Source of the DNA: a virus
Direction: 5' to 3' (one strand)
IMG/VR virus record: IMGVR_UViG_3300007540_000023
Span: 1 to 45,378 of that record
Length of the DNA: 45,378 nt
Positions 2 to 41,582 of this stretch are shown here, piece by piece (within the stretch, counting starts at the first letter, position 1; every line of letters begins with the position of its first letter). The notes beneath the pieces are model-generated. The model did no database searches. It was not told where the DNA came from and saw nothing but the letters and a program-made list of their open reading frames with translations. The position numbers were made by a program, and so were the translations under genes.

Positions 2-277
2 AAACAAGACACTATCGAGATGCAAGAGGTTACTAAAAGATGGTCTGCTGATATGATGTCTGATTCTTGGTTAAGTAAGAATATAAGACCTCTAAGCCTT
101 GCTTTTCTAACTATAACCCTATTCGTCTACATCATATTAGATAGTTCATTAGAAGGCTTTACAATAGCCGACAATTGGATAGATTTACTATCTTCATTGT
201 TGCTTTTAGTTTATGGTGGTTACTTTGGATTTAGAAGTGCTGAAAAGATTACTAAAGAATGGCGTAAAAATAAATAA
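2..277 (+). CDS. Holin-like membrane protein, 5' end cut by window edge
   Basis: The reading frame is open from the first bases, so the gene starts upstream of the window; an internal ATG at 20 would give 85 aa. The visible part begins with a charged stretch containing RWSADMMSDSWLSKNIRPL. Two hydrophobic segments follow (about residues 27-41 and 52-70 from the ATG), then a basic tail ending EWRKNK. The SWLSKNIRPL motif and this layout resemble the three-TM holin family described from gene transfer agents, which permeabilises the inner membrane during lysis. Its position before the tail fibre, at the edge of the virion block, fits a lysis gene. A holin call is an inference; a generic small membrane protein is the alternative. 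No endolysin is visible in the window. Confidence 0.6.
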   Translation, partial: KQDTIEMQEVTKRWSADMMSDSWLSKNIRPLSLAFLTITLFVYIILDSSLEGFTIADNWIDLLSSLLLLVYGGYFGFRSAEKITKEWRKNK

Positions 278-346: not shown

Positions 347-2956
347 ATGGCAAGAATTAAGAACAAGAACAAATACCCAGTAGTAGTACCTAACCTAGAT
401 GACTACTTTGTAGGTAGTAAGGAGGATAACAATGGTAAGACTGTAAACTACGACTTTAGCACCTTAATAGACATCATCAAGAATGCTGATGGTGTACCTA
501 CTACGGTGTACAAGTTCTCAGCTGTTGAGGACGCTACGACGGTTGGTGGTTACTTTAACACAAACGATGACACTCTAGAGTTCCTATCTATTACAGATAT
601 TGTAATCAGTAAGGAGGATATAAACGAGAACGACATGTCACTAGTTCTTGACAACCTAGTAGCTAACCAACAGAACGTGGTTATGTGTTTAAGGGACGGT
701 AACAGCAGGTACTACTTCTTTAAGGTAACTGCGTCTGTAACAAACACAGAGTCCTACTCACTTACGGTTGAGAGTATAGGTACTACTAGTATTGGGGTTA
801 TGCAGGAGGGTTCAAGCTTTGTATTTAGCTTTATAGTTACAGCTAGGGACGCAGCGTTGATAGAGCAGGTTGAGAACAACACTGAGATTATAAACGGGCT
901 TTCTAACAAAGAGGTAGACAGAATTATAGTTGGTGGTGCTTTTATTTGGACAGAAGAGGATTTAATATTCCAATGGTCGTTCTACCAGTATGTTCTTTTA
1001 GGTAGTGTATCTTATATAGCTGGTAATAGTGGTAGTCCAAACTTAATAACTCTAGACGCTCCAGATGTTGGAGAGGTAGACGACAGGATAGATTTAATTG
1101 TTATCGATGGCATTTCTAGAGATGTAATAGTCCTTAAAGGTGTTCCATCCCCTACCCCACAAGAGCCAACTCTAGTGTTTGGAGTTCAGTTAAGGGTTAC
1201 GGCTATCTACGTACCTGCTAATGGAAGTCCTATAGGTATTACTACTGAAAAGGTTTACGACGAGAACTTAGGAGACCCTGCTGAGTGGGATGTGACAAAC
1301 CTTCTGGGGACTGGTGTAGTGTCTGACGATACTACTGTTGGTATACCTTCAGGTTCATACAACATAAAGTTCCCTAGTAATTTAAACGTGAATCAGTATG
1401 AGGCTATTACTCTTACGGCTGGCACACCTGTTACTTACGACAGTGGCGGTGCATTGATATTTCAGTTAAAGCAATCGGAACGGTGGGAAAGCTCTACAAG
1501 ATTAGTAATCAGGCTAGAGGACAGCTTAGCTGCACAGATAGAGATTCAATTAAATTACACCTCGATACTACCATTTGGGTTTGACTCTGCGAATGATGAC
1601 ACTTGGATGACGGTAGCGATACCAATAAGTAGTATTGATATATCGAGTAGTGCCTTGGTAGATGTTAGTAAGATAACTATTGAAGCACACAACCACCCTG
1701 TTCTATATATAGACAACATACGCTACCAGACAGGTATTAGTACACCTAATGGCACACTTACTTCTTTATTACAGGAAGTAGTAAACCCCATAGATGCTTA
1801 TTTTGGAACAAGATTAGAGTCTGTAGAAGAAAGAGATGGATTTTATGTAGAGAGTTCTAATAACAAAGCAACGGGATATATTATAAATAACACAAACACA
1901 ACAGATAATGCCGCTTTATCAGGATTCAGAGCTGTTATAAATAGTGACCCATTTGGAGATGGAATCTACATGGGTATACAGAATACTAACTACTACGCAC
2001 CGTGGTTAAGGGCTGTAGGGCTTATTAATTCTAAGAACATTAAAATATTAACTAATGATAATACTGGGGATATTATATTCGGATTAGGGAATGCCGCTAG
2101 TACTAGTATTATAGAGAGTACTCAAGATATAGTTTTAGCCCTTAATAATGACAGGACAGTAGTAGTACCAAGTTTAACTACAGCTTTAATTGATGGAGAA
2201 GGGACTGGAAAGAGTTTAATTACTAAAGAGTGGATTACTGCACAAGGATTTAGTACTGGTTTGGGGTTTGTACCTTATACAGGTGCAACAGCTCCTGTTG
2301 ACTTAGGAGTATATAGTTTAACATCAAGTTTACAAATTAATAAAGGAATACTAGTTGAAGATTCATCTAACACTTCAAATTCATTAAACTTAAAAACAGC
2401 AACACTGGGTGCGTCTATAGCTGGGGCTGGGTATGTTTCTTTGACTTCAACTACTGCTGACTATTTAAGTATATATTATGGTAATGTTTCAAAAATTGCT
2501 GACTTAGACGGCTCTGCTATAACAGCCAAAAGAACCTATACTTTTCCCGATGCATCAGGTATACTACCACTAAGCGTTAACGGAGAGGTAGCGGATGCTG
2601 CGGGTAATATTACTATTTATGCTGTCACAAATTCAAACGTTGCGGGTAGCGGTGGTGTTGGTTCAAGAACATTAAACTGGGGTACTCCTGAGATAGTAAA
2701 ATTCGGGATTTCAGCGTCGGGTAATATGACCTTCTCAGATACCAACCTTCCTGCTGCGGGTACTTACCAAAAGAAAGAGATTTATATCACAGGTAATACA
2801 GGAAGTACAGCAACTTTTCCAACGTACTGGCAACAAGAAGAGAATGGTGAATCTTTATCATTCCCCTCTTTAAACAGGGTAACTATAACCTGCCTTAATT
2901 CCACTGCCTTATCAGAAGAGATTTATTATAGGATTGATAGAATAAAAGCAATTTAG
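347..2956 (+). CDS. Tail fibre / receptor-binding protein
   Basis: 869 aa, Ser/Thr/Asn/Gly-rich and beta-prone, with no catalytic motif. The N-terminal third (MARIKNKNKYPVVVPNLDDY onward) looks like a virion-attachment region. The middle carries a sandwich-like domain. From about residue 620 there is the KEWITAQGF...FVPYTGAT pattern common in Bacteroidota phage tail-fibre tips. The last ~100 residues form a compact beta-rich tip ending YYRIDRIKAI. The start is the first ATG after an AT-rich leader. The part encoded after about base 1780 is visibly more AT-rich and uses different codons from the first half, suggesting the host-binding half was exchanged. Fibre identity is inferred from composition, position and the tip motif; a baseplate/appendage protein is the alternative. 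Confidence 0.65.
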   Translation: MARIKNKNKYPVVVPNLDDYFVGSKEDNNGKTVNYDFSTLIDIIKNADGVPTTVYKFSAVEDATTVGGYFNTNDDTLEFLSITDIVISKEDINENDMSLVLDNLVANQQNVVMCLRDGNSRYYFFKVTASVTNTESYSLTVESIGTTSIGVMQEGSSFVFSFIVTARDAALIEQVENNTEIINGLSNKEVDRIIVGGAFIWTEEDLIFQWSFYQYVLLGSVSYIAGNSGSPNLITLDAPDVGEVDDRIDLIVIDGISRDVIVLKGVPSPTPQEPTLVFGVQLRVTAIYVPANGSPIGITTEKVYDENLGDPAEWDVTNLLGTGVVSDDTTVGIPSGSYNIKFPSNLNVNQYEAITLTAGTPVTYDSGGALIFQLKQSERWESSTRLVIRLEDSLAAQIEIQLNYTSILPFGFDSANDDTWMTVAIPISSIDISSSALVDVSKITIEAHNHPVLYIDNIRYQTGISTPNGTLTSLLQEVVNPIDAYFGTRLESVEERDGFYVESSNNKATGYIINNTNTTDNAALSGFRAVINSDPFGDGIYMGIQNTNYYAPWLRAVGLINSKNIKILTNDNTGDIIFGLGNAASTSIIESTQDIVLALNNDRTVVVPSLTTALIDGEGTGKSLITKEWITAQGFSTGLGFVPYTGATAPVDLGVYSLTSSLQINKGILVEDSSNTSNSLNLKTATLGASIAGAGYVSLTSTTADYLSIYYGNVSKIADLDGSAITAKRTYTFPDASGILPLSVNGEVADAAGNITIYAVTNSNVAGSGGVGSRTLNWGTPEIVKFGISASGNMTFSDTNLPAAGTYQKKEIYITGNTGSTATFPTYWQQEENGESLSFPSLNRVTITCLNSTALSEEIYYRIDRIKAI

Positions 2957-2979
2957 AAGTTAGAGTTTACAATTAATAA

Positions 2980-3011
2980 AAGGGGGGCAGCTCTAACCCG
3001 TTGTCCCTCTT
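2980..3011 (+). other. GC-rich hairpin after the tail fibre gene
   Basis: A 12-bp stem with a few G-U pairs (arms 2980-2991 and 3000-3011, loop of 8) lies between the fibre stop and the next promoter. The plus-strand RNA has no U-run after it, so it may be a 3'-end stabilising structure or a factor-dependent terminator rather than a classical intrinsic terminator. Confidence 0.45.
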
Positions 3012-3040
3012 AATAAAAACAGAGGTGTGCTAATAATTTG

Positions 3041-3048
3041 TATTTTTG
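3041..3048 (+). promoter_or_regulatory. Bacteroidota-type promoter -7 box (TATTTTTG)
   Basis: Matches TAnnTTTG, the Bacteroidota -7 consensus, 13 nt before the ATG at 3062. It would start the operon carrying the 85-aa protein, tandem GroES-like protein, terminase and portal. No clear -33 element is seen. Confidence 0.55.
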
Positions 3049-3061
3049 TATTAAATTTAAA

Positions 3062-3319
3062 ATGAATACAATTATGAAGATTATAAGAAAGATATCAGTA
3101 GGCAGAGACTACCCAAACGGGTCGATACATTATCAGGTTGGAAAGGAGATAAACCTACTAGGTCAGATGTACACAATATCCTCAATCATGCTAGAGTACG
3201 TAGAGGGAGATAAGCTGGGGTACAACATATACATAGAGAGCCAAGAGGTTGGTACGATGCTATGGAAGACTATAATAGACATGCCTATACATATAGAGAA
3301 TGATATAACCTTCATGTAA
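3062..3319 (+). CDS. Conserved-looking small hypothetical protein
   Basis: 85 aa, function not recognised. It contains KISVGRDYPNGSIHYQVGKE near the N terminus and ends MPIHIENDITFM; it is mostly beta-prone, with no membrane segment and no cysteine. The ATG at 3062 lies just downstream of the promoter box; an alternative ATG is at 3074. A longer frame from TTG 3038 would overlap the promoter box and is disfavoured. The stop overlaps the start of the GroES-like gene (TAATG), so the two are probably translationally coupled. It is the first gene of the packaging operon, so a role near co-chaperonin or terminase is possible but unproven. Confidence 0.6.
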   Translation: MNTIMKIIRKISVGRDYPNGSIHYQVGKEINLLGQMYTISSIMLEYVEGDKLGYNIYIESQEVGTMLWKTIIDMPIHIENDITFM

Positions 3320-3885
3320 TGACTATAAACTATATAATAGTAGAGGTTGATGATGCATACAAGAACGAGATAGATGGGTTGGTGGTCAACTCGACTATTG
3401 AAAGTGTGGCTCACATCAACAGGGTAGCTAAGGTTGTAGAAGCCCCAAGCTTCACTATCATAGAGAAGGGTGATGAGGTCGTGGTACACCATAACATGTT
3501 TAGGCTTAGAAACGGCTTAAGGGGTAAGAGGGTGTCATCAAACTACCACCTAGAGGGTAACAGGTACTTCATACCACTAACAGAGGTGTTTATGTACAGA
3601 CGTGGTGGTGAGTGGCAGGCTATCAGACCCTTTGTGTTTGTTGAACCTATCAAGCAGGAGGATGAAGTAATAGGTAGGGTAATAATCAACAGTGATAATG
3701 CAAAGAGTCACAATGGGATGGTTAAGCTACAGGGTATTATAAAGTACCCTAACGATGAGTTAACAAGAAGAGGTGTAAGCGTTGGTGATAAGGTGGTGTT
3801 CTCTTATTGGAGTGAGTACGAGTTTAACATAGACGGTGAGACCTTATATAAGATGTCAACAAACGATATCTTGGCTGTAATATGA
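3319..3885 (+). CDS. Tandem-domain GroES-like co-chaperonin
   Basis: 188 aa. Residues 101-188 align by eye along the whole GroES fold: IRPFVFVEPI at the first strand, a loop with the hydrophobic stretch GRVII (119-123) where GroES has its GroEL-binding GGIVL/GGIII mobile loop, then GVSVGDKVVF (152-161) matching VKVGDxVxF, and YKMSTNDILAVI matching the GroES terminus LIMSESDILAIV. Residues 1-100 look like a second, more diverged barrel: YIIVEV, GLVV at a loop position, EKGDEVVV, and YFIPLTEVFMY. The layout recalls two-domain plant Cpn20. It would cap the phage GroEL encoded at 39772-41349. It overlaps the terminase gene by ATGA. The second domain is well supported; the first is inferred. Confidence 0.72.
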   Translation: MTINYIIVEVDDAYKNEIDGLVVNSTIESVAHINRVAKVVEAPSFTIIEKGDEVVVHHNMFRLRNGLRGKRVSSNYHLEGNRYFIPLTEVFMYRRGGEWQAIRPFVFVEPIKQEDEVIGRVIINSDNAKSHNGMVKLQGIIKYPNDELTRRGVSVGDKVVFSYWSEYEFNIDGETLYKMSTNDILAVI

Positions 3886-6557
3886 TAGGATTAAGCTCGG
3901 ACATAAAACTAGCACTAGACACTGTAATAGAGGGTCTAGAGTACAGGTTCAATGATGACGACCTTCTCAATCCAGAGAAGATGCAGATTATCATGAAGTC
4001 TAAGGTATCCTCATTCAAGTCGGCTAAGGATATACTAATGAGGTGGTCGGGGTCGCCTAACGCACCTACACAGGAGATACTGGTAGAGTACGTTAAGGGT
4101 GTTATACACGCAGGAGACAAGGCTTTACTTACACTAAGACACGCACTTAGACAGAAGATTGACTACACAGAGTTAGACGCAACAAGCCACAACCAAGCCA
4201 TAGCAGCTAAGTCATTTATACTAGAGTCTGTATTCGACCTAGATAAGGCTTTAATTGACTTAAGAAATAAGCTAGAGGATGGTAACCTAGACCTTTCAGA
4301 CAAAGAGTTTAAGCTAGGATACCCAGAGGTCTACGCTAAGAAGGCTAGCTACAACATAAAGAACTACTTTAAGGACTGGTATAACGAAGATACCGACGGA
4401 GTAAATATATGCCCACACTCTACAGTAGGTGAGACGATAGTTCTACAGGACTTATCTATCACACTACCAGAAGAGCCAGAGGACAAGACTAAGATACTGT
4501 TCCACAACCTGCCTCAGAAGAAGCAGCACTGGGTAAGACAGCAAGCACCAGAGGAGATTAACCCAGACAATGTAGAGCTCTGGGATGAGTACATTAAAGA
4601 GGAGTACAGGAGACGTAGAGAGGGTCTTTGGTTCTACAACAACGGAGAGGCTGTATACCTAACAGGTCACCACTACTTTGCATTACAGTGGTGTGCCATG
4701 CTGGATAACGGTGGCTACATGGACTTTAGGGTTGCACAGTTAAATATGTTCTACCACATACAGGCGTGTATCACAGATAAGAGATGCCTAGGTCAGTTGT
4801 TTGTTAAGTCAAGACGTACAGGGTTTACGTACGCTGTACTATGTGTACTACTTAACCAAGCCACTACAACACCTAACAGTAAGTTCGGTATGACCTCTAA
4901 GTCAGGGGATGATGTACAGGAGGCGTTTGACAAGATGTCATACATGTTCCTATCCCTACCGTTCTATTTTAGACCTGTCGTGAGAGGCAAGGAGGATAGC
5001 CCTAACGAGCTTTTCTTTGGTAAACCATCTAACAACTCCAAGGAGGCTAAGAAGACTCGTAATACAGGCATTAAAGACTATTTAAACACTAGTGTAGACC
5101 ACAGACCAACTAAGAATGATTCATATGACTCGGTGAAGTTAGATGGGTACTTAGGGGATGAGGCTGCTAAGTGGATGAAGCCACATGATTATATCGTCCA
5201 TCTAGGTATGGTAGCTCCAACAATGATGCCTAACGGTAAGGTTGTAGGTAAGGCTTACATAGGTTCAACTATGGGAGCTAGAGCTAAAGGTGGTGACCAG
5301 TACGTGGAGATGATAAACGGCTCTCAGGTTAGTAAAAGAAACGTTATAACCAAGAAGACCTCAACAGGTCTTTATATGTACTTCCTACCTGCACAGGATA
5401 ATATGGAGGAGTACACGGATAAGTACGGCAAGTGTCATGTACTTAAGCCAGAGGTTAAGACATATAACATATCAGGAGAACTCATAGAGAGAGGCTCTAT
5501 TGAATACTTATTGGCTGTAGAGGAGCAGAAGAAGGCTCAGTCAGATAAGGCTCTTAACGAGCAGCTGAGGACGTATCCGAGGACGTTAGAGCATGCCCTT
5601 AGGGATGAAGAATCTCAGTGTGTGTTTAACATCAATAAACTATACGAACAGATTGACTACGACGCTACACTACCAGAGGAGTCTCTATACACTAGGGGTA
5701 ACTTCAAGTGGAGGAGTGGTGTGGTTGACACGGATGTAGAGTTCTACCCAGACGATAAGGGTAGGTTTAAGATATCTTGGATGCCCTCAAAGGTTGATAA
5801 TACAGAGGACTTAAAGAACGCTGTTAAGAGGCTGGGAGAGAAGTACTACCCACTTAACTTAGAGTGTGTAAGGTTGGGGTGTGACCCCTTCTCATTAAAG
5901 TCTACACACGGTAAGGGTTCAAAGGGTGGTATACATGGAAAGACTATTGTAAGTCCAGATGGTGGAGCACCCTCTAACAAGTTTGTGCTGGAGTATCTAG
6001 CCAGACCTACTGATGAGACTGTGTTCTTTGAGGACGTTATTATGTGCTGTAGGTTCTATGGTGCACCAATACTAGTGGAGTCTAATAGGATTGACCTGCT
6101 ACGTCACATGAGGAATAGAGGGTATAGAGCGTTCTGTATGGATAGGTTGGATAGACCTAAGTCTAAGCTAAACCCTAATGAGTTAGAGTATGGTGGTCAG
6201 GTGATGTCAGGTAAGGATATACTAGACTCGCATATGAACGCTATAGGTCTGTGGGTTGAAAACTACGTAGGGGTCTATAACAATGAAGAGCAGAAGGTAA
6301 GACCTCAGGGAGAGATGGGTGATATGCCTTTCGAGGAGACGCTTAAGGATTGGCTAGCGTTCAACCCAGATAAGAGGACTGAGTATGATGCAACAATCTC
6401 TAGTGGACTAGCAATAATGGCTTGTCATACAGAGCGTTATAGAGGTAAGAAGGAAGTAGTAAAGAGAATACACGTAAAGAGTCTATTAAAGAAATATAAC
6501 AACAAGGGTGCGATAGGCAGCCAAGTAACAATGAAAAATAGTAATTATGCAAAATAA
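3882..6557 (+). CDS. terL: Terminase large subunit (TerL)
   Basis: 891 aa; the packaging motor that translocates DNA into the prohead and cuts the concatemer. A deviant Walker A is at about residue 308 (KSRRTGFTY, in place of GxxGxGKT). A Walker B follows at about 420-427 (DGYLGDEAAKW). The C-terminal RNase H-like nuclease begins around residue 665 (RLGCDPF), with later acidic residues in VESNRIDLL and YDATISSG. The GLWFYNNGEAVYLTGHHYFALQW block before the ATPase is typical of crAss-like and related Bacteroidota phage terminases. The long ~230-residue N-terminal region is mostly helical and makes the protein longer than T7- or lambda-type terminases. No separate small terminase is visible, so the extension could serve that role (inference). 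It overlaps both neighbours. Confidence 0.9.
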   Translation: MIGLSSDIKLALDTVIEGLEYRFNDDDLLNPEKMQIIMKSKVSSFKSAKDILMRWSGSPNAPTQEILVEYVKGVIHAGDKALLTLRHALRQKIDYTELDATSHNQAIAAKSFILESVFDLDKALIDLRNKLEDGNLDLSDKEFKLGYPEVYAKKASYNIKNYFKDWYNEDTDGVNICPHSTVGETIVLQDLSITLPEEPEDKTKILFHNLPQKKQHWVRQQAPEEINPDNVELWDEYIKEEYRRRREGLWFYNNGEAVYLTGHHYFALQWCAMLDNGGYMDFRVAQLNMFYHIQACITDKRCLGQLFVKSRRTGFTYAVLCVLLNQATTTPNSKFGMTSKSGDDVQEAFDKMSYMFLSLPFYFRPVVRGKEDSPNELFFGKPSNNSKEAKKTRNTGIKDYLNTSVDHRPTKNDSYDSVKLDGYLGDEAAKWMKPHDYIVHLGMVAPTMMPNGKVVGKAYIGSTMGARAKGGDQYVEMINGSQVSKRNVITKKTSTGLYMYFLPAQDNMEEYTDKYGKCHVLKPEVKTYNISGELIERGSIEYLLAVEEQKKAQSDKALNEQLRTYPRTLEHALRDEESQCVFNINKLYEQIDYDATLPEESLYTRGNFKWRSGVVDTDVEFYPDDKGRFKISWMPSKVDNTEDLKNAVKRLGEKYYPLNLECVRLGCDPFSLKSTHGKGSKGGIHGKTIVSPDGGAPSNKFVLEYLARPTDETVFFEDVIMCCRFYGAPILVESNRIDLLRHMRNRGYRAFCMDRLDRPKSKLNPNELEYGGQVMSGKDILDSHMNAIGLWVENYVGVYNNEEQKVRPQGEMGDMPFEETLKDWLAFNPDKRTEYDATISSGLAIMACHTERYRGKKEVVKRIHVKSLLKKYNNKGAIGSQVTMKNSNYAK

Positions 6558-8982
6558 GAAAATGTTAACCAAGAGGTCTTACCCTAACCCTCTAGCACCA
6601 GATGAGGAGAAGATTACTGAAGAGTACGGACTAAGCATGGCTAAGGCTATCGAGTATGAGTGGTGGTACAGACCTAACGGTAGTATGTGTAACTTCTTAG
6701 ACAAGCGTCAGCAGTACCATAACCTTAGGCTATATGCCAGAGGTGAGCAGGACACTAAGTTGTATAAGGATTTAATTACAGGTGGTGATGAGGAGTCTTA
6801 CAGTAACTACGACTGGAGACCTCTTCAGATTGTACCTAAGTTTGTAAAGCTGCTATCTAATCAGATGACTGAGAGGCTGTTTGATATAAAGGCAGACGCT
6901 GTTGATAAGTACTCCACAAACCTTAAGGAGGACTACAAGGCTAGTATACAGAGTCTTATGGACACCCTACCAACTATGAGAGCTGCAGAGGAGGCTCTAG
7001 GTGTTAGTGTTGTACCACCAAACGCTGATGAGATTCCAGAGACAGAGGAGGAGTTGGATTTATATATGAAGCTAAAGTACAAGCCTGCTATTGAGATTGC
7101 AGCAGAGGAGGCTATAAAGTATACATTAGAGCTTAACGACTTTGATGAGACCCAGTCTAGGGTTATAGAGGATGTAGCTACATTAGGTGTAGGTGCTGTT
7201 AAGCATAGAACAGACCCTAACAAGGGTATCGTCATTGACTGGGTAGACCCTGCGGACTGTGTACACTCTTATGCTAAGCATAGGAACTACAAGAAGGTAC
7301 ACTACTTCGGAGAGGTTGAGAGAATGACTGTCAATGAACTAAAGAGGTTATCTAACGGTAAGTTCTCAGATGAAGAGCTTCTAGAGATTGGGGCTAGTAC
7401 AAGTGAGTGGAACAAGTACCACCAGACAGGGCAGTCTGATAACTTCAGAGAGAGCGACTTAGCTGGTAGTATGGTTGACGTACTACACTTCACATTCAAG
7501 TCTACAAAGACACTATCATACAAGAAGAAGTACACAGCTAACGGTGGCTTTAAGATGACTAAGAGGGAGAGTACCTTTAAGAAGAAGAACAACGCTAAGG
7601 GGTTCGATGTATCTAAGAAGGTTATAGACGTATGGTACGAGGGTTCTTTAATACTAGGGACTGACAAGGTATTTAACTACAAGCTTTGTGAGAACATGAT
7701 TAGACCTAAGGGCTACCTAAACAAGACGTTACCTAACTACTTATTCTACTCACCAGATTTATATCAGGGTAGGACTAAGAGTCTTATTGGAAACATTATA
7801 CCCTACGTAGACCAGATGCAGCAGATTCATATCAAGCTACAGCAGCTTATTGCTAAGTCTAGACCTAACGGGGTGTTCATTGATGTGGATGGCTTGAGTG
7901 AGATAGACATGGGAGACGGTAGCTTCTTAACACCGCTTGAGGTTATTAAGATTTATGATGAGACTGGTAATGTACTAGGTACTTCTAAGGATTATGCTGG
8001 AGAGTACAACCACGGTAAAGAACCAATTAGAGAGCTAAAGAATGGTATAGTAGATGGTCTTGACAGACTAATCTCTGCATACAACCACTACCTTACACTA
8101 CTTAGAGATGCTATTGGTGTACCAGTGGGAGCTGATGCATCAACACCAAACCCTAAGATGGCTGTAGGTGTACAGGAGCAGTTAGCTTTAAACTCTAACA
8201 CGGCTACCAGACACATACTAGACTCAGTACTTAATATTAGCGAGAGACTTGGAGAGGGACTATCTCTAAGGCTTAAGGATATCTTTGAGTACTCGAACCT
8301 AAAGGAGGCTTACACAAACGCTATAGGTATGGTTAATGTACAGACGCTAAAGGCGTTAAAGAACTACCACCTACACGACTTAGGTATCATTATAACCCTT
8401 AGACCAGATGCTCAGGACAAGCAGTACCTAGAGCAGAATATACAGGCAGCTGTATCTAAGGATAGTATAACAGTAGACGACGCTCAGGATATTAGAACCA
8501 TATCCAACATTAAGCTAGCTAACGCATTACTTAAGACCAGAAGGGTTAAGAGGGACAAGCTTAAGCGTGAGCAGGAGATGCAGAAGATTGAGAAGAACAA
8601 CGAAGGTCAGCTACAGGTTACTCAGGCAGCTTCACAGGGCAAGCAGCAGGAGATTCAAGTTGCTACACAGTCCGAGCTTGCTAAGATAAAGGCTAAGACT
8701 CAGGGTAGACTAGCTGAGATAAAGGCAGAAGAGGAGGCTAAGATGAGGCTGATGGAGAAGGAGTTCAACTACAACATGCAGATTAAGGGTGCTGAGACAG
8801 ACCTAGCTAACGACCAGAAGAGGTACGATAACGACAGGAAGGATTCAAGGCAGAGGGAGCAGAACTCAGCCACATCTAAGATAGCAGAGCAGAAGCAGTT
8901 CAATAAGCCAGCTATGAATTTTGAGTCAGCAAACGACTCAATATCTGGAAACATAGGTATGGAGGACGTTAACGTGTCCTAA
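6547..8982 (+). CDS. Portal protein
   Basis: 811 aa. It follows TerL directly and is read as the dodecameric portal at the DNA-entry vertex. The N-terminal region carries YEWWYRPNGSMCNFLDKRQQYHNLRLYARGEQ. A core with long helices follows, and the C-terminal ~130 residues are a Gln/Lys/Glu-rich coiled coil (about 680-790) that could form the portal barrel or crown. Size, order (terL-portal-scaffold-MCP) and sequence style match crAss-like/Bacteroidota podophage portals. The first ATG (6547) overlaps TerL by 11 nt; an ATG at 6562, 5 nt past the TerL stop, is a plausible alternative start. Confidence 0.8.
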   Translation: MQNKKMLTKRSYPNPLAPDEEKITEEYGLSMAKAIEYEWWYRPNGSMCNFLDKRQQYHNLRLYARGEQDTKLYKDLITGGDEESYSNYDWRPLQIVPKFVKLLSNQMTERLFDIKADAVDKYSTNLKEDYKASIQSLMDTLPTMRAAEEALGVSVVPPNADEIPETEEELDLYMKLKYKPAIEIAAEEAIKYTLELNDFDETQSRVIEDVATLGVGAVKHRTDPNKGIVIDWVDPADCVHSYAKHRNYKKVHYFGEVERMTVNELKRLSNGKFSDEELLEIGASTSEWNKYHQTGQSDNFRESDLAGSMVDVLHFTFKSTKTLSYKKKYTANGGFKMTKRESTFKKKNNAKGFDVSKKVIDVWYEGSLILGTDKVFNYKLCENMIRPKGYLNKTLPNYLFYSPDLYQGRTKSLIGNIIPYVDQMQQIHIKLQQLIAKSRPNGVFIDVDGLSEIDMGDGSFLTPLEVIKIYDETGNVLGTSKDYAGEYNHGKEPIRELKNGIVDGLDRLISAYNHYLTLLRDAIGVPVGADASTPNPKMAVGVQEQLALNSNTATRHILDSVLNISERLGEGLSLRLKDIFEYSNLKEAYTNAIGMVNVQTLKALKNYHLHDLGIIITLRPDAQDKQYLEQNIQAAVSKDSITVDDAQDIRTISNIKLANALLKTRRVKRDKLKREQEMQKIEKNNEGQLQVTQAASQGKQQEIQVATQSELAKIKAKTQGRLAEIKAEEEAKMRLMEKEFNYNMQIKGAETDLANDQKRYDNDRKDSRQREQNSATSKIAEQKQFNKPAMNFESANDSISGNIGMEDVNVS

Positions 8983-9006
8983 AAAACGACCATACGCTTT
9001 TTTTCG

Positions 9007-9014
9007 TATATTTG
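9007..9014 (+). promoter_or_regulatory. Promoter -7 box (TATATTTG) before scaffold/capsid genes
   Basis: Matches TAnnTTTG in the 72-bp gap between portal and scaffold genes, 40 nt before the next ATG. A short inverted repeat (ATACG at 8992, CGTAT at 9005) with a T-run loop overlaps it; this could be a weak terminator or an operator. It would allow capsid genes to be expressed above portal level. Confidence 0.55.
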
Positions 9015-9054
9015 CAAGTATAAATAGTTAAATAAAATATAAAATTACAACAGT

Positions 9055-10266
9055 ATGAAAACAGGAGGATATAGAGACAATTCCAACTCAAGTATGGACA
9101 TTGACTTAAGTGGAGAGGTACAAGACACGAGTGGAGAAGCACCTGCACCAGATGCAGTAGCTGCAGCAGCAGAGTCAGAGCCTAGCACTCCAGTAATACA
9201 GGACACATCAAATGAAATCCAAGAGACTGGACAGTTTGATGTTCCACCAACAGTAACTGAAACTGCATTGAATGCAGATGAGGATAAACGTTCTTTAAAT
9301 ACAGACTCTGAACCAGTCGCTAATGAATTAAGTAAGCCAGTAGTTGAGAATACTCCTGTCGAGATTAGTGAGGAACTACACCTTAAGTACCTAAGCGAGA
9401 AGCTAGGGAGAGAGGTGAAAGGTTTCGATGAACTAACTAAGACCGAGAGTAGTCCACTTGACTCTGACCCTTACTTGAAGGAGTTAGCTGAATGGAGAGA
9501 CAAGACGGGTAGACCGATAGAGGACTGGATTAAATTTCAAAAGGATTACACCACAGTGTCGGACGCTGATATTGCAAGAGAGTTTCTGCAGATTGAGTTT
9601 CCCGAACTAACACAGGATGAAATCGAGTTAGAAGTTTCCCAGAAGTTCTTATCATCGGAAGATGACTTTGACAACGAGATAGCGATTAAGAATCTAGAGC
9701 TTAAGAAGTATGCGTCAAAGGGTCGTAAGGAGTTAAATAAGTTAGTTTCTGACTTAGGTAACCCCAATCCAGCTAATCTTACACCAGAGCACCAACAAGA
9801 TTTAGCTATCGCTAAAGAGTACAAGGAGCTGAAGGCTCAAAGCGTTGTAGACAATAAGGCTTACAGCGAAACAATAGCCAACAGTGCTGCCGAGTTAAAG
9901 ACTATTAAGTTGAACTTAGCAGAGAATGTATCTTTAGATTATAGGCTACCAGACAACTACTCTGGTGAGATAGTAAAGATGGTACAGGAAGCCCCGCATT
10001 GGAAGAATGAGGATGGCTCTTGGAATCATCAAGCAATTGTTAAGGATGCTGCTATAGTGCAGAACATGGACAAGATGCTACAGCTAGCTTACGAGCAGGG
10101 AAAGAGTTCTGGTGCAGATACAGTAGTTCGAGAGACTAAGAACATTACCTTGGATAGGAGAGGCTCTAACGAGTCAGCTCTACCACAGGGTAACAACGGA
10201 GTACAGATTGAGGGACTGGATAACTATTTAGGTAACAAGGGAATGAAGATTATCCGAGGTAGATAA
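9055..10266 (+). CDS. Probable scaffolding protein
   Basis: 403 aa lying between portal and major capsid genes, the usual place of the scaffold. The first ~115 residues are low-complexity, acidic and Pro/Ala/Ser/Thr-rich (disordered). The rest is charged and helix-rich, with LGREVKGFDELTK near residue 120 and coiled-coil-prone segments. The C terminus is basic (NKGMKIIRGR), as in scaffold proteins that bind coat protein through a basic tail. No protease motif is seen. The role is inferred from position and composition; a minor head protein is the alternative. Confidence 0.6.
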   Translation: MKTGGYRDNSNSSMDIDLSGEVQDTSGEAPAPDAVAAAAESEPSTPVIQDTSNEIQETGQFDVPPTVTETALNADEDKRSLNTDSEPVANELSKPVVENTPVEISEELHLKYLSEKLGREVKGFDELTKTESSPLDSDPYLKELAEWRDKTGRPIEDWIKFQKDYTTVSDADIAREFLQIEFPELTQDEIELEVSQKFLSSEDDFDNEIAIKNLELKKYASKGRKELNKLVSDLGNPNPANLTPEHQQDLAIAKEYKELKAQSVVDNKAYSETIANSAAELKTIKLNLAENVSLDYRLPDNYSGEIVKMVQEAPHWKNEDGSWNHQAIVKDAAIVQNMDKMLQLAYEQGKSSGADTVVRETKNITLDRRGSNESALPQGNNGVQIEGLDNYLGNKGMKIIRGR

Positions 10267-10301
10267 AACAGATAATAATAACATAGATAAATTTTATAAT
10301 A

Positions 10302-11657
10302 ATGGCATTAAATGCATCACCAAGTGCGAAGGTAACACCTACTTCTACTAAAGCAGTATTGAAGACTAACTACATCTCTTTATTTGATTATTCAAGTCAA
10401 GAAGCACCAGAAACTCACGACCAAATAGCTACCATTTATGGTAAGCAGTCTGTATCTGGAATGCTTTACATGCTTGGAGCAGAGGGTGGTTTCGCATCAG
10501 ATAAGTATATATGGACTGAGGAAGGTCGTCTACACACAGTGTACAATGACGTAACTCGTTCTGGAAGCGTATTCTCTAAAGCAGGGCACGTATTCCGTTT
10601 AAATGAAACAGTACATCTTTCGGATGGTTCTGTAAAACGTAGAGGTATCATTATAGCTGTGGATGACGCAGCAGGTACTTTTGAGGTAGCACCTTACAAA
10701 TCAGCAGGTTTCACTGCGTTAGGTACAACAGCTATCACAGCGTTTGTAGATGGTTCTGAGTACCGTAAGGGTACTAATGGAGCTCAAGGGTCTTTAGAGA
10801 CTGACTTCACAATCTTAGACAACAAGCCTATCATCTTGAAGGATAAGTATGAGGTTAATGGTTCTGACGCAACTCAAATTGGTTGGGTTAAGACATCTGC
10901 AGGAGGGTACTTATGGTACTTAGAGTCTGAAAAAGACACTCGTAGACGTTGGGAAGATAGATTAGAGACTTCTTTAATCTTAGGAGAGAAGGCAGAGAAT
11001 GGTTCTGCTGCACAGGCTAACGGCTATGCAGGTACAGAAGGTTTCTTTGAAGCTATCCGTAAGAGAGGTAACACATACGCAGGTATCTTAGGAGATATTG
11101 CTGACGTTGATGAGGTTGTGAAACGTTTCGACGCACAGGGTAAGATTCAAGACTACATGTTCTACTGTGATAGAGACCAGTCTTTAAGTATCGACAATAT
11201 GTTAGGAGTATTAAATGCAGGGCATGCCACTGGTATATCTTACGGAATGTTTGATAACGACAAGGACATGGCTGTAAACTTAGGTTTCAAAGGGTTCACT
11301 AGAGGTTCTTATAACTTCTTCAAGACTGACTGGAAGCTGTTAAACGACCCTACATTGTTAGGTTCAGTAGCAGCAGCAGCTGGTAAGATTCGTGGAGCTT
11401 TAATCCCAGTTGGGACTAAGGAGGTTTACGAGGGTGAGTACAACGGTAACGGTGGAGGTGAGAAAATCACTGTACCATTCTTACAGTCTAAGTACAGAGT
11501 AGCGGGAGCAGAGAATCGTAAATACAAAACTTGGGTAACAGGTACTGTAGGTGGGGTTTACACTGACGACGAGGATGTAATGAAAGTTCATCACTTATCT
11601 GAAAGAATGCTTTGTACTACAGGTGCAAACAACTTCATGTTATTTGAAGGAGCATAG
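10302..11657 (+). CDS. Major capsid protein
   Basis: 451 aa; shell subunit of HK97-type capsids (fold inferred). Features shared with crAss-like/Bacteroidota podophage coat proteins are RRWEDRLETSLILGEKAENG (about 212-231), GYAGTEGFFEAIRKRGNTY (about 242-260) and YCDRDQSLSIDNMLG (about 287-301). The start follows an AT-rich leader after the scaffold gene. Unlike neighbours, which favour AGG/AGA for arginine, this gene uses CGT often, as expected for the most highly expressed virion protein. A strong terminator follows 13 nt after the stop. Confidence 0.85.
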   Translation: MALNASPSAKVTPTSTKAVLKTNYISLFDYSSQEAPETHDQIATIYGKQSVSGMLYMLGAEGGFASDKYIWTEEGRLHTVYNDVTRSGSVFSKAGHVFRLNETVHLSDGSVKRRGIIIAVDDAAGTFEVAPYKSAGFTALGTTAITAFVDGSEYRKGTNGAQGSLETDFTILDNKPIILKDKYEVNGSDATQIGWVKTSAGGYLWYLESEKDTRRRWEDRLETSLILGEKAENGSAAQANGYAGTEGFFEAIRKRGNTYAGILGDIADVDEVVKRFDAQGKIQDYMFYCDRDQSLSIDNMLGVLNAGHATGISYGMFDNDKDMAVNLGFKGFTRGSYNFFKTDWKLLNDPTLLGSVAAAAGKIRGALIPVGTKEVYEGEYNGNGGGEKITVPFLQSKYRVAGAENRKYKTWVTGTVGGVYTDDEDVMKVHHLSERMLCTTGANNFMLFEGA

Positions 11658-11669
11658 TAATATAGTACT

Positions 11670-11709
11670 AATAGGGAGGGGCTTAAATCTCTCCCTATTA
11701 TTTATTTCA
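11670..11709 (+). terminator. Intrinsic terminator after major capsid gene
   Basis: A 9-bp perfect stem, AATAGGGAG (11670-11678) with CTCCCTATT (11691-11699), is extendable by a G-U pair and followed by ATTTATTTC. Partial termination here would give capsid mRNA in excess over downstream genes. Confidence 0.75.
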
Positions 11710-11736
11710 ATAGTAATTTAATCTAAATATAATACA

Positions 11737-12552
11737 ATGGCAGTAGCAAAGAAGGTAGACCCTAAGAGGACTACAACAAAGAAAGTACTCACATCTAAGG
11801 AGTACAGATTAGCGGATGACCGTTCTGGTCTAGCTTTTATAATGAAAACAGGAAAAAACAAGAAGCTTTTAGTTTGGGATGACAAGCAGGAACTTAGTAT
11901 TCCTATCAGGCATTGTCCTAGTGAGAAGTCAATCTTTATAGATAAGCAGTCTGACTATGCGTATGTTGAGCCTATCGTCTTTATGCACGGTAGTATTGAG
12001 ATACCTCGTGAGGCTCAGATAACGCAGCAGTTCTTAGACGCCCACCCAGATAATGTAAAGAATGGTGGGACATGGTTTGAGGAGATTAATGAAGAGGCAG
12101 AGGCAGAGAATGATTTAGTATTAGATGAGATTAAGATTGACATCTACAACGCTGTTCGTGAGAAGGCGTTAAAGGATGGAGGAGAATATGAGTTAGAGGC
12201 TGTGGTAGCAGTGCTGGATAATGATGTACAGGGTGCGTCTATAATGAAGGTAAAATCTCTTAAGAGGCGTATATACCAAGAGATAGAGGCAGACCCGTTC
12301 TACTTCTGTGACGACAATGGTAACGTTACAATCTTTGAGGACGACTACATCACACGTAAGTACTTTACTCTTAGAGCAATCAAGGAGTCAATCATCAAGA
12401 AGAGTAGCAACAACAAGTCCATGGTATGGGTAAGGGATGGCAAGGTAATCGTCTCAGCACCTAGGGGTATTGAGCTTACAGAGCACTTCGCAGACTTCCT
12501 ATCAACGGATGAAGGCATGCTAGTCTCTGAAGAGATTAAGAAGAGGAGTTAA
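11737..12552 (+). CDS. Capsid-associated structural protein (function unknown)
   Basis: 271 aa, directly after the major capsid gene. It has a basic N terminus (KKVDPKRTTTKKV) and a beta-rich domain, with IPIRHCPSEKSIFIDKQ around residues 66-82. A helical, acidic middle follows, and the C-terminal half contains RRIYQEIEADPFYFCDDNGN. No enzyme motif is present. Crass-like and related phages often carry such a protein between coat and connector genes; a head-decoration or head-completion role is inferred from position only. It is followed by a terminator and a new promoter. Confidence 0.5.
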   Translation: MAVAKKVDPKRTTTKKVLTSKEYRLADDRSGLAFIMKTGKNKKLLVWDDKQELSIPIRHCPSEKSIFIDKQSDYAYVEPIVFMHGSIEIPREAQITQQFLDAHPDNVKNGGTWFEEINEEAEAENDLVLDEIKIDIYNAVREKALKDGGEYELEAVVAVLDNDVQGASIMKVKSLKRRIYQEIEADPFYFCDDNGNVTIFEDDYITRKYFTLRAIKESIIKKSSNNKSMVWVRDGKVIVSAPRGIELTEHFADFLSTDEGMLVSEEIKKRS

Positions 12553-12573
12553 TAACCTCTAAATATATAACCT

Positions 12574-12607
12574 AACCCTGCAGTTTCATATTGTGGGGTT
12601 TTTTATT
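12574..12607 (+). terminator. Intrinsic terminator
   Basis: Stem AACCCTGCA (12574-12582) with TGTGGGGTT (12592-12600), including two G-U pairs, followed by TTTTATT. It ends the capsid transcription unit just before the next promoter box. Confidence 0.75.
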
Positions 12608-12623
12608 GCTTCCTAATTTTTCT

Positions 12624-12631
12624 TATCTTTG
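12624..12631 (+). promoter_or_regulatory. Promoter -7 box (TATCTTTG) for connector/tail genes
   Basis: Matches TAnnTTTG, 20 nt before the ATG at 12652 and directly after a terminator, forming a terminator-promoter cassette. It probably drives the connector, small GroES-like and tail-tube genes. Confidence 0.65.
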
Positions 12632-12651
12632 TAACACTTAAAATACACACA

Positions 12652-13338
12652 ATGATAGACACGATTTATAAAGTGCTGTTGACTATAATCAACAAAGAGA
12701 ACCAAGGCTATATATCACCAGAGGAGTTCAACCTCATAGCAATCAATGTACAGAATGAGATATTTAGTGGCTACTTCAAGGACGCTAATGAGTTTAAGAA
12801 CCTGCAGAATAGGGGGTTCACAAACAGAGGGTACGCTAACCTACCGCTACAGAATAGGGAGGATATAGGTGCTTTTGCTGCAACAGCTAATGGTACAGTA
12901 ACCGCTGGGCTTGTAGACCTACCATCAGATATGTATGTAATAGAAGACCAAGGGGTTACGACCTCAGCAGGTATCTTGATAGATGAGGTGGAGAGGAGTG
13001 CTATAGCTATTATGGCTAGGTCAGAGGTCGCTCCTACAGAGCTGTACCCTGTTTACGAGTGGTTTGGGAGCACTTTAAAGGTCTACCCTACTACTATTAC
13101 CTCTGTTAATTTTAGGTACATTAGAAAGCCTCTAAACCCTAAATGGACTTACACTATAGTAGCTAATAAGGAGATGTATGACCCTTCTAATGCTTCATTC
13201 CAAGACTTCGAGTTAGACTCCTCAGAGTTCTACAACATCATACTAAGGATGCTTACCTACTTTGGAATCAACCTTAGAGAGCCAGAGGTGGTTAAGATGG
13301 CGGAGCTAATGAAGGATAAGGATAACGTAAAAAACTAA
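12652..13338 (+). CDS. Head-tail connector / ring protein
   Basis: 228 aa. It opens with MIDTIYKVLLTIINKENQGYISPEEFNLIA, a helical pattern recurrent in Bacteroidota phage connector genes placed between capsid and tail-tube genes. NRGFTNRGYANLPLQNRED comes next, then a beta-rich middle (VDLPSDMYVIED; VYPTTITSVNFRYIRKP) and a helical end. It is one of two consecutive connector-like genes, 5 nt upstream of the second. A ring or adaptor under the portal is inferred from order and pattern; no residue-level function is visible. Confidence 0.55.
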   Translation: MIDTIYKVLLTIINKENQGYISPEEFNLIAINVQNEIFSGYFKDANEFKNLQNRGFTNRGYANLPLQNREDIGAFAATANGTVTAGLVDLPSDMYVIEDQGVTTSAGILIDEVERSAIAIMARSEVAPTELYPVYEWFGSTLKVYPTTITSVNFRYIRKPLNPKWTYTIVANKEMYDPSNASFQDFELDSSEFYNIILRMLTYFGINLREPEVVKMAELMKDKDNVKN

Positions 13339-13343
13339 TATAG

Positions 13344-14216: not shown

Positions 14217-14239
14217 CAGTAATTAAAATTAAATAGAGT

Positions 14240-14485
14240 ATGAAGATGTTAAACAGCAACATATGTTGCAAAGACTTAGATGAGGTAGTAGAGAGGGTAG
14301 GTAGAGTAATGATACCTACTAAGGATAAGAAGTACAGAAGCTTACAGGTAGTAGTGTCTGGTGATGATAATGTTAAGGTAGGTGATGTTATATACGTCCC
14401 TATAAGCTCTGGAGTCGACGTGAAGGTTGAGAAGGAGTTATACACCATTGTAAACGCTAGAGAAATTATACTAATATTAGACTAA
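14240..14485 (+). CDS. Second, single-domain GroES-like protein
   Basis: 81 aa. From residue 20 the sequence tracks bacterial GroES. VGRVMIPTKDKK (20-31) matches the mobile-loop region IGGIIIPxxxKEK of Bacteroidota GroES, VVVS (37-40) matches the strand before the roof loop, NVKVGDVIYV (44-53) matches the VKVGDxVxY signature, and VDVKVEKELYTIV...IILILD matches the final strands. The roof loop is shortened, which explains 81 rather than ~97 residues. It lies between connector and tail-nozzle genes, away from both GroEL and the tandem GroES-like gene. It could be a dedicated co-chaperonin for a tail substrate or a barrel recruited as a structural part. The similarity is by eye and unverified. 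Confidence 0.5.
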   Translation: MKMLNSNICCKDLDEVVERVGRVMIPTKDKKYRSLQVVVSGDDNVKVGDVIYVPISSGVDVKVEKELYTIVNAREIILILD

Positions 14486-14489
14486 CAAT

Positions 14490-18662: not shown

Positions 18663-18669
18663 TTCTTTT

Positions 18670-18681
18670 ACAATGCATTGT
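18670..18681. promoter_or_regulatory. Perfect 12-bp palindrome, candidate operator
   Basis: ACAATGCATTGT is a perfect inverted repeat located 9 bp upstream of a TATCTTTG box, within the spacer where a repressor or activator would touch RNA polymerase. No regulator gene is identified in the window. Confidence 0.35.
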
Positions 18682-18690
18682 TTATTTTGC

Positions 18691-18698
18691 TATCTTTG
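18691..18698 (+). promoter_or_regulatory. Promoter -7 box (TATCTTTG) for internal virion genes
   Basis: Matches TAnnTTTG and lies 22 nt before the ATG at 18720. It would drive the GNAT-like gene, the two internal virion genes and the 10-kb giant gene as a late unit. Confidence 0.65.
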
Positions 18699-18719
18699 CA
18701 TTACTAATTTATATACAAC

Positions 18720-19139: not shown

Positions 19140-19143
19140 TAAT

Positions 19144-39771: not shown

Positions 39772-41349
39772 CTACTTATCTAGTGCAACTATAGTACACT
39801 CAGTCATCAGTACCAGTGAGGCTACTGACGCAGCGTTCTCTAACGCCACCCTAGTAACCTTTGTAGGGTCAATTATACCAGACTCTACCATATCTACAAG
39901 CTTATTGGTTGTAACGTCATATCCAGTACCTATAGGGCTAGTGCTAAGGTCTGTAATTACAGTGTCAAAGCTTACACCTGCATTCTGTAGGATTACCTTA
40001 AAGGGCTTTACCAGTGCATTTATTACTATTAGATACCCACTCCTTATGTCCTTATTAGTTGATGTAAGGGAGTGTAAGGGCGTTGCACAGTTGTGTAATG
40101 CTATACCACCCCCAGATACAATTCCTTCCTCTAAGGCTGCTCTAGTAGCCCCTAGTGCGTCATCAATCCTGTCCTTCTTCTCCTTCATCTCAATCTCAGA
40201 GTTAGCACCTACGTACAGTACCGCTACACCACCTGATATTAAAGCCAGCCTCTGCTTAATCTCCTCTATCTCGTAAGGACTGTTTGAGGTCTCAATGTTA
40301 GACCTTAGATTAGCCTTAAGCTCTTCTATGTCTGCAACCTCTCCGTGACCGCCAATGATGATAGTGTCATCCTTATCGACAACAATCCTATCGCAGCATC
40401 CGAACATCTCAAAGGTAAACTCCTCAAAGGTAAGCCCTGCTGCCTCAGTCACTACAGTACCACCAGTAATAACCGCTAGGTCTTCCATCGTGTAGTTCCT
40501 CTTCTCTCCTAGGAACGGTGCTTTGATAGCTGCAACCTTCCATCCACCTCTAATCTTGTTGATTACCAGTGTAGCTACAGACTCACCTGATAGGTCACCT
40601 GCTATTATAAAGATAGGCTTGCTCTCAGGGATACACTCCAGTACCTTTATGATGTCAGTAACAGCCTCTATCTTAGCCGTGGTTAGTAGTATCAGAGGGT
40701 TGTCTAACTCTACAGTACTCTTAGCCTCGTTGTTGATGAAGCCTGATGAGGTGAACCCTCTAGAGAACTTCAAGCCCTCAACTACATCTACATAGGTATC
40801 GACACTCTTAGACTCCTCAACAGTAATAGTACCCTCCTTGGTTACCCTGCTGATAGCGTCCTCAACTATGTTACCTATCTCAGCATCTCCATTGGCTGAT
40901 ATAGTAGCGACCTGTCTGGTCTGCTCTGTACCGTTAACAGGCTTAGACATCAACGCTAGCTCCTTAACCACTAAGGCTACGGCTTCATCTATACCCCTCT
41001 TTAAATCTACTGGGTTAGAACCCTTGTCTAGGTACGCCATACCCTCAGCAATCATCTCCTGTGCTAGCACTGTAGCGGTTGTTGTACCATCTCCAGTGTC
41101 CTTAACAGTCTTAGCTGAGACTCCTTTAATCATCTGAGCTCCCATATTAGCTAGGCGGTCATCCAACCACACCTCCTTGGCTACAGAGTAACCATCCTTA
41201 GTTACGTGAGGAAGTGCAGGTGCAGGCTTCTCTATAACTACATTTCTACCCATAGCTCCCATAGTACAGGCTACCGAGTCTGCTACTACGTTTATGCCAC
41301 GCATAAGACCCTTCCGAGCCTCCTGCGAGAAGTTTATATCCTTGCTCAT
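39772..41349 (-). CDS. groEL: Chaperonin GroEL (phage-encoded)
   Basis: 525 aa; full-length Hsp60. Equatorial: GMRN-type segment TMGAMGRNVV (E. coli TLGPKGRNVV, so Pro33 is Ala), TKDGYSV, ATP loop DTGDGTTTATVLAQ. Apical: EGLKFSRGFTSSGF, where E. coli has RGYLSPYF, so one aromatic substrate/GroES-contact residue (Tyr203) is Gly. Intermediate/equatorial: GGVAVLYVG, EMKEKKDRIDDALGATRAA with the catalytic Asp398 equivalent, and EEGIVSGGG. The GGM-repeat tail is absent; it ends MTECTIVALDK. It folds proteins in the host cytoplasm with a GroES lid, probably one of the GroES-like proteins at 3319-3885 and 14240-14485. Start overlaps the preceding stop (TAATG). Confidence 0.95.
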   Translation of the reverse strand: MSKDINFSQEARKGLMRGINVVADSVACTMGAMGRNVVIEKPAPALPHVTKDGYSVAKEVWLDDRLANMGAQMIKGVSAKTVKDTGDGTTTATVLAQEMIAEGMAYLDKGSNPVDLKRGIDEAVALVVKELALMSKPVNGTEQTRQVATISANGDAEIGNIVEDAISRVTKEGTITVEESKSVDTYVDVVEGLKFSRGFTSSGFINNEAKSTVELDNPLILLTTAKIEAVTDIIKVLECIPESKPIFIIAGDLSGESVATLVINKIRGGWKVAAIKAPFLGEKRNYTMEDLAVITGGTVVTEAAGLTFEEFTFEMFGCCDRIVVDKDDTIIIGGHGEVADIEELKANLRSNIETSNSPYEIEEIKQRLALISGGVAVLYVGANSEIEMKEKKDRIDDALGATRAALEEGIVSGGGIALHNCATPLHSLTSTNKDIRSGYLIVINALVKPFKVILQNAGVSFDTVITDLSTSPIGTGYDVTTNKLVDMVESGIIDPTKVTRVALENAASVASLVLMTECTIVALDK

Positions 41350-41582
41350 TATATTCTAGCTCTATTAAGGTTCAACGCTCTAAATCTCTTAAACATAGAC
41401 CTCCTGTCCTTTCGGTTCATGAAGTTGTTTAGGTACGGGTTATTCTTTGTTATAGGGTTAACCAAGACCCCCTCACTGTTGATAATCTTAGTGTAGGGGA
41501 TGTTCTTAGGTATCTGACCTATTGTAGGCTCTGGTGTTACAACCTCTGGGTCTACTACTGTAATCTCTTTACTGTCTTTCAT
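41349..41582 (-). CDS. 77-aa hypothetical protein between RNR and GroEL
   Basis: 77 aa with two parts. The N-terminal half is acidic and Pro/Val-rich, probably disordered (VVDPEVVTPEPTIGQIPKNI). The C-terminal half is basic, NNPYLNNFMNRKDRRSMFKRF, and may be an RNA/DNA- or protein-binding helix. Its stop codon overlaps the GroEL start (TAATG), so GroEL translation may be coupled to it. It does not resemble GroES. Function unknown. Confidence 0.55.
   Translation of the reverse strand: MKDSKEITVVDPEVVTPEPTIGQIPKNIPYTKIINSEGVLVNPITKNNPYLNNFMNRKDRRSMFKRFRALNLNRARI

Follow-up and report, generated by a model that had tools for sequence, protein, structure and literature searches.

A tandem GroES-like co-chaperonin gene beside the phage terminase gene and its single-barrel companion

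Gene arrangement in the window

The DNA considered here, referred to as the window, is a stretch of 45,378 nucleotides, positions 1 to 45,378 of the viral record IMGVR_UViG_3300007540_000023. On its plus strand, at 3319..3885, lies an ATG-initiated open reading frame (ORF) of 188 amino acids that is assigned as a tandem two-barrel GroES-like co-chaperonin, with barrel 1 covering approximately residues 1–98 and barrel 2 residues 99–188. The assignment draws on Pfam, PHROG, AlphaFold2 (AF2), and VIA; it is made from sequence and fold for barrel 2 and from the predicted fold for barrel 1. The start of the gene overlaps the stop of a 93-residue ORF (3038..3319, plus strand, TTG start as listed) in the junction TAATG, and its own stop overlaps the ATG of the terminase large subunit gene (TerL; 3882..6557, plus strand; PHROG 6681, E 6.3e-151) in the junction ATGA. 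The 93-residue ORF has no Pfam or PHROG match. The two overlaps suggest that translation of the tandem gene is coupled with that of both neighbors. Further along the same strand are the portal protein (6547..8982; PHROG 6547, E 1.3e-167) and a virion structural protein (10302..11657; PHROG 13704, “head and packaging”, E 5.2e-140), which from its position would be the major capsid protein.

A terminator-like hairpin of 13 pairs followed by a T-run was found by consensus scan at 11669..11700 (plus strand), and it may mark where the transcript carrying the tandem gene ends. Because it follows the gene at 10302..11657, the tandem gene would be made together with TerL, portal, and capsid. The preliminary description had placed the gene in a packaging operon, and the overlap with TerL bears this out. 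Across 2900–19200 the scan returned 15 terminator-like sites, compared to 7.4 in shuffled sequences. A second terminator-like hairpin, of 11 pairs, stands at 12574–12600 (plus strand), downstream of a gene at 11737–12552.

The main ORFs are on the plus strand up to 31542 and on the minus strand from 31583. A giant plus-strand ORF of 3407 residues (21319–31542) has one weak match, to phrog_3842 of unknown function, over residues 1994–2070; at the corresponding place in the gene order, a gene labeled as structural protein measures 5 kb in phi38:1 and 11 kb in elemo. It had been proposed that the lid is made late and GroEL early, which is plausible for the window on the basis of strand and gene order. 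The single-barrel GroES gene of phi38:1, Calle, and elemo accompanies GroEL on the other strand from the tandem gene; MW202828 and Panino have GroEL, the single-barrel gene, and the tandem gene all on one strand. With these strand patterns, a simple rule of late lid synthesis cannot be extended to both lids or to every relative. Promoters are uninformative since the scans stayed at the level of chance: sigma-70-like matches numbered 35 against 35.2 in shuffles, and the Bacteroidetes promoter pattern was absent from the scan with 0.83 expected.

The window carries a second GroES gene that the preliminary description had left out. It encodes a single-barrel protein of 81 residues (14240..14485, plus strand; loop tip GRVMIP) with matches to Pfam Cpn10 (PF00166; E 1.1e-5, 25.8 bits, cut-off 21.1) and PHROG 3188 (E 8e-6), and it sits between virion structural genes at 13344–14216 and 14490–18662. 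Most aligned single-barrel relatives have a loop of the form SGLxL, and the window’s own reads VGRVMIP. By comparison with GroES, the window protein lacks the roof hairpin, as do most of its aligned relatives. The Arabidopsis Cpn10s are said to be without it as well (PMC4242682). On the related contig G003, a single-barrel gene is flanked by homologs of the same two genes as its counterpart in the window. On three further contigs (those of L017, L018, and L004), a second Cpn10 match is separated from the tandem gene by about 10 to 11 kb, again as in the window. On the L004 contig that match is below the cut-off, and the ORF there (L057) is 52% identical to the window’s single-barrel protein.

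The group I chaperonin GroEL (525 residues) is encoded at 39772..41349 on the minus strand. It matches PF00118 (E 2.3e-56), exceeds the cut-off of the equivalog TIGR02348 (606.0 bits against 582.1), and aligns nearly end to end with solved GroELs. It contains the ATP-site and apical-domain motifs DGTTT, VTKDG, RIDDAL, and ATLVINK. The gene is real and the protein looks complete from its sequence, in agreement with the phage GroEL that had been read at this position. Directly upstream of it, a 77-residue ORF (41349–41582, minus strand) has no credible family match in Pfam or PHROG. At the corresponding site, phi38:1 has a small ORF followed by its single-barrel GroES. The phi38:1 genes are gp005 for GroEL, gp007 for the single-barrel protein, and gp089 for the tandem protein. 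The single-barrel gene is near GroEL in phi38:1, Calle, elemo, MW202828, and Panino but in the structural region in the window, and it may have moved in the window phage.

Fold and mobile loops of the two barrels

Sequence searches treat the halves of the tandem protein unequally. Residues 106–188 score 36.1 bits with Cpn10 (PF00166; E 6.8e-9; cut-off 21.1). Searched against PDB sequences, the profile of the C half picks up GroES 1wnr (9.1e-7) as well as the second barrel of Cpn20, 7ekq_R (5.2e-5). It also aligns with the profile of the phage single-barrel proteins (hhalign probability 96.5, E 8.7e-10). For the N half alone (residues 1–100), the Pfam search gives no Cpn10 match and no credible family (best TsaE, E 0.15, below cut-off), and the profile search of PDB sequences gives no credible match; a lone acyltransferase entry was taken as spurious. 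With the profile of the whole tandem protein, GroES entries of the PDB match the C-terminal part only (best 0.0035). Compared directly by hhalign, barrel 1 and barrel 2 are not significantly similar (probability 3.5), and barrel 1 and the single-barrel family reach E 0.0016 but a probability of 15.9. By these comparisons, barrel 1 is without a significant sequence link to GroES. PHROG 13932, a family of 200 positions named “co-chaperonin GroES”, covers residues 3–188 (E 1.6e-30) and matches the N half alone at E 2.9e-11. The NCBIfam GroES models are widely missed, with a best score of 36.0 bits against a cut-off of 133, so the protein is not filed as a cellular GroES.

Structure prediction extends the assignment to the whole chain. 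The AF2 model of the tandem protein (51 sequences; pLDDT 83, pTM 0.77) has as its best whole-length PDB match 7ekq_R, a Cpn20 co-chaperonin subunit, with a Foldseek E of 5.7e-6, and VIA superposes the two over 161 residues (model 2..188; Z 10.6, rmsd 4.5, 16% identity). The analogy with Cpn20 that had been drawn from the sequence is thereby sustained. Predicted alone, barrel 1 (residues 1–98; pLDDT 80.6, pTM 0.72) ranks co-chaperonins first: the top 16 rows of the VIA comparison are all co-chaperonins (Z 7.5 to 5.1), headed by human Hsp10 (4pj1_U; Z 7.5, rmsd 2.5, 79 aligned), and they are followed by the GroES-like domains of dehydrogenases and reductases at Z 4.7 or less. Bacteriophage T4 gp31 (1g31) aligns by VIA with barrel 1 alone (Z 5.7, rmsd 3.7, 77 aligned) and with barrel 2 of the whole model (Z 6.0, rmsd 4.8, 88 aligned). 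The barrel 1 scores are modest, as Z values below 8 are by the tool’s own note, and Foldseek with barrel 1 alone returned nothing at E 0.001 or better (best 1.1e-2). Barrel 1 is accordingly a predicted GroES fold with modest scores. The ORF is real and of the length first described, and the two GroES-fold barrels in tandem are recovered, the C half as Pfam Cpn10 and the N half by predicted structure.

In GroES, a mobile loop with a hydrophobic tip is expected between strands 1 and 2. Judged by sequence alone, the window protein has both equivalents: residues 11–34 in barrel 1 (3349..3420, plus strand), with the tip GLVVN, and residues 112–137 in barrel 2 (3652..3729, plus strand), with GRVII. 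The loops were surveyed in 91 distinct tandem proteins, 61 of which are of the MW202828 type. Segment 21–34 of barrel 1 has a constant length of 14 residues in all 91, and residues 21–23 are at least two-thirds hydrophobic in 90, with alanine counted as hydrophobic. The barrel 2 loop has 14–16 residues in 76 of the proteins and 21–26 in the other 15, including the window protein with 26.

Conservation of the loops differs among lineages. In the window clade, the barrel 2 loop is full-length and the least conserved of four segments, with a mean pairwise identity of 0.26 compared to 0.57 in its barrel. Over six lineages, the barrel 1 loop is less conserved than its barrel (identity 0.20 versus 0.32), and in the MW202828 group the short barrel 2 loop is as conserved as its barrel (0.74 versus 0.75). 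Given the shortening, barrel 2 of the elemo, MW202828, and Panino lineages would hardly be able to bind GroEL in the usual way, and the loop of barrel 1 may be the one that binds it there. The preliminary description had taken the C half, with its mobile loop, for the recognizable GroES and had called the N half diverged. Across the relatives, it is the N-half loop that is kept and the C-half loop that is mostly short, though the window protein has both.

Relatives and accompanying chaperonin genes

By tblastn, 77 of 50,697 phage records contain the tandem protein, each with a query coverage of at least 80%. These are 68 Flavobacterium elemo phages, seven Cellulophaga phages, one Maribacter phage (Panino), and MW202828. 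Cellulophaga phi13:2 has a more distant homolog of 200 residues, annotated as chaperonin cpn10. Full-length relatives are annotated as GroES or cpn10 in the cultured flavobacterial phages phi38:1, Calle, elemo, Panino, and phi13:2. The phi38:1-type phages (Pervagoviridae, Pachyviridae, and elemoviruses) have the same gene, PHROG 13932, in the same place, and their annotation makes no mention of two barrels. Cpn10 is a listed core gene of the Pervagoviridae, although that source does not state in its listing which cpn10 gene is meant (PMC8776804), and Panino is reported to have homologs of both GroEL and GroES (PMC11590407).

The gene is already known and annotated, and so is GroEL in phi38:1-like phages. 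According to PMC5332604, GroEL homologs occur in 36 EVGs of the phi38:1-like group, in which 78 EVGs have homologs of phi38:1 structural proteins. The GroEL protein of phi38:1 is described in PMC13288928 as methylated and as seen in infected cells and in free-virion samples; the main text of that study contains no occurrence of GroES or Cpn10. In some phages, chaperonins are located near canonical DNA polymerase genes (PMC11348598), and a term search of PMC7077304 and PMC9855967 found no chaperon terms. A literature search, with most subscription papers outside its scope, returned no description of a tandem phage GroES, of its pairing with a single-barrel gene, or of the shortening of one loop. 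The earlier statement that there is no characterized phage example stands for biochemistry, as none was found, but not for occurrence, given relatives in 77 phage records of which several are named GroES or cpn10.

In all six phage records that were read, the tandem gene precedes TerL, either immediately or with a single small ORF separating the two. Among viral contigs, four different tandem queries returned 17, 20, 540 (80 kept), and 5 loci. The accompanying genes were surveyed in the window, the six phage records, and every contig of at least 45 kb among the returned loci, a total of 22 large records: the window; G003; phi38:1, Calle_1, elemoF 6-3D, MW202828, Panino, and phi13:2; G018–G028 (11 contigs); and G035–G037 (three contigs). 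The six phage records are five of the 77 from tblastn together with phi13:2, the third query contributed 80 of its 540 matches, and G034 was omitted because it agrees with phi13:2 in length and in match positions. As these records are related and several of them nearly identical, 22 should not be read as the number of independent events.

All 22 large records contain, apart from the tandem gene, a short open frame whose Cpn10 match exceeds the cut-off. GroEL is present in 17 of them, and none was found in G003, phi13:2, and G035–G037. With no GroEL found in these five, the tandem lid does not necessarily work with a GroEL of phage origin, and the pairing of the two assumed in the preliminary description is not obligatory. 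G003 (L005) has 72,812 bases with the same 32 bases at both ends, by which the contig is probably complete. Its possession of tandem and single-barrel GroES genes with no GroEL match suggests that this relative uses host GroEL.

Smaller contigs give a mixed picture. Five contigs are between 33 and 42 kb, four of which (G030–G033) have the single-barrel gene and GroEL and one of which (G029, 41.8 kb) has neither. G038 (32.5 kb) has the tandem and single-barrel genes with no GroEL found. The remaining contigs, of 4 to 23 kb, are too short for absences to be counted. Gundel_1 has a TerL relative, and neither Cpn10 nor GroEL was found in it.

Proposed composition and role of the lid

The closest known counterpart of the tandem protein is Cpn20 of chloroplasts and apicoplasts, which likewise has two head-to-tail GroES-fold barrels per chain and a single-barrel Cpn10 alongside. 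The phage protein differs in that barrel 1 is far diverged, with a hairpin segment (57–84) of 28 residues compared to 17 in phage barrel 2, and in that the barrel 2 loop is shortened in most relatives. As for descent from the Cpn20 tandem, the C half matches the second barrel of 7ekq_R, as given above, and the N half has no sequence match. Since barrel 1 has no significant sequence relation, the phage tandem would likely have arisen independently of chloroplast Cpn20. Phage-encoded GroES-fold co-chaperonins are also represented by T4 gp31 and by the GroES of Pseudoalteromonas phage B8b (PMC4294664). Those are single-barrel lids, whereas here there are two barrels in addition to a separate single-barrel gene and often GroEL.

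A lid with two barrels per chain faces a seven-fold chaperonin, which PMC5780408 describes for the even-barreled Cpn20 as a symmetry dilemma. The authors of an Arabidopsis study propose that the predominant form combines three Cpn20 with one Cpn10, and they cite a requirement for four or more functional subunits out of seven (PMC4242682). By chain count, the Chlamydomonas structure 7EKQ combines a single Cpn11 and a single Cpn23 with two Cpn20 chains, which amounts to seven barrels if Cpn23 (212 residues) is a tandem and all share one ring. Its title names CrClpP-S2c, a Clp protease complex, and the lid was solved there off the chaperonin, so it is a precedent for the make-up of the lid and not for its partner. 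The chain make-up of 7EKQ together with the phage set of tandem and single-barrel genes, kept even where no GroEL was found, makes a mixed seven-barrel lid most likely. On balance we favor, with some reserve, a tandem protein that acts as co-chaperonin in a mixed lid for a group I chaperonin. The two barrels of a chain would sit as adjacent subunits of the lid that closes the folding chamber, and three tandem chains with one single-barrel chain would complete the ring of seven. The kept loops, three from barrel 1 and one from the single-barrel protein, would hold GroEL, with barrel 2 mainly building the ring, at least where its loop is shortened. Such a lid would be made with the packaging and capsid proteins and would help to fold one of them. 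Its partner would be the phage's own GroEL if the genome encodes one, and host GroEL in the relatives that lack the gene.

Two separate lids that do not mix, namely a ring of tandem chains alone (e.g., four chains and eight barrels) for a large virion protein and a heptamer of the single-barrel protein, are a rather unlikely alternative that gene positions partly favor. In phi38:1, Calle, elemo, MW202828, and Panino, the single-barrel gene adjoins GroEL or is within one ORF of it, and the tandem gene is several kilobases away, on the opposite strand in the first three. In vitro, Cpn20 is active as a homo-oligomeric tetramer (PMC4242682, PMC5780408). However, the pairing of tandem and single-barrel genes holds in the five records without a phage GroEL too, and both lid genes are in the structural region in the window and in G003. 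More improbable still is a tandem protein that has kept the GroES fold but is no longer a lid, its GroEL-binding loops decaying. It would then help assembly or packaging through direct contact with TerL, the portal, or the capsid, or would cap a different ring, for example a Clp protease as the Cpn20 lid does in 7EKQ. Its overlap with TerL at the DNA level, its position upstream of TerL in six lineages, the shortened barrel 2 loop of 76 of the 91 relatives, the strong divergence of barrel 1, and the Clp title of 7EKQ would all be consistent with such a role. It accords poorly with the length of the barrel 1 loop and its hydrophobic tip, kept in 91 and 90 of the 91 proteins, with the single-barrel GroES in every large record, and with a window barrel 2 that still scores as Cpn10.

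The small terminase subunit (TerS) is usually encoded just before TerL, and gene order is what would recommend the tandem protein as its replacement. This is hardly credible for a predicted GroES fold, and a separate ORF of 99 residues in phi13:2 and of 94 residues in MW202828 lies between the tandem gene and TerL. Gundel_1, without Cpn10, has a 103-residue ORF at that place. These small ORFs before TerL provide another TerS candidate. A role as a structural protein was considered weak, as the neighbors of the tandem gene in phi38:1 are labeled structural and the gene itself is not.

A bolder form of the mixed-lid reading can be put forward tentatively. In it, phages evolved the lid of three tandem chains and one single-barrel chain independently, most barrel 2 domains serve as spacers while about four loops grip the chaperonin, and phages without GroEL take over host GroEL to fold a packaging or capsid protein from the same message. 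The idea of four active loops fits the relatives better than the window phage, for which it is weaker because its barrel 2 has a full-length loop. A second occurrence of the tandem in cultured phages such as phi38:1 and elemo would offer a small natural system in which to ask what number of loops suffices for a lid and whether rings are generally mixed. In most lineages seen, the GroEL-binding loop of one barrel is short, hence their use for the question of loop number. The system would also help to tell which virion protein depends on a lid of its own and whether phages can redirect host GroEL by means of a lid alone.

Outside viral records, one pattern-limited scan of genome contigs with the MW202828-type query gave four places, all on contigs titled as metagenome-assembled genomes (MAGs). 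These (L211–L214) carry the tandem gene at 61–66% identity in contigs titled Aliivibrio (two), bacterium TMED88, and Nitrosomonadaceae, and they are perhaps wrongly binned phage contigs.
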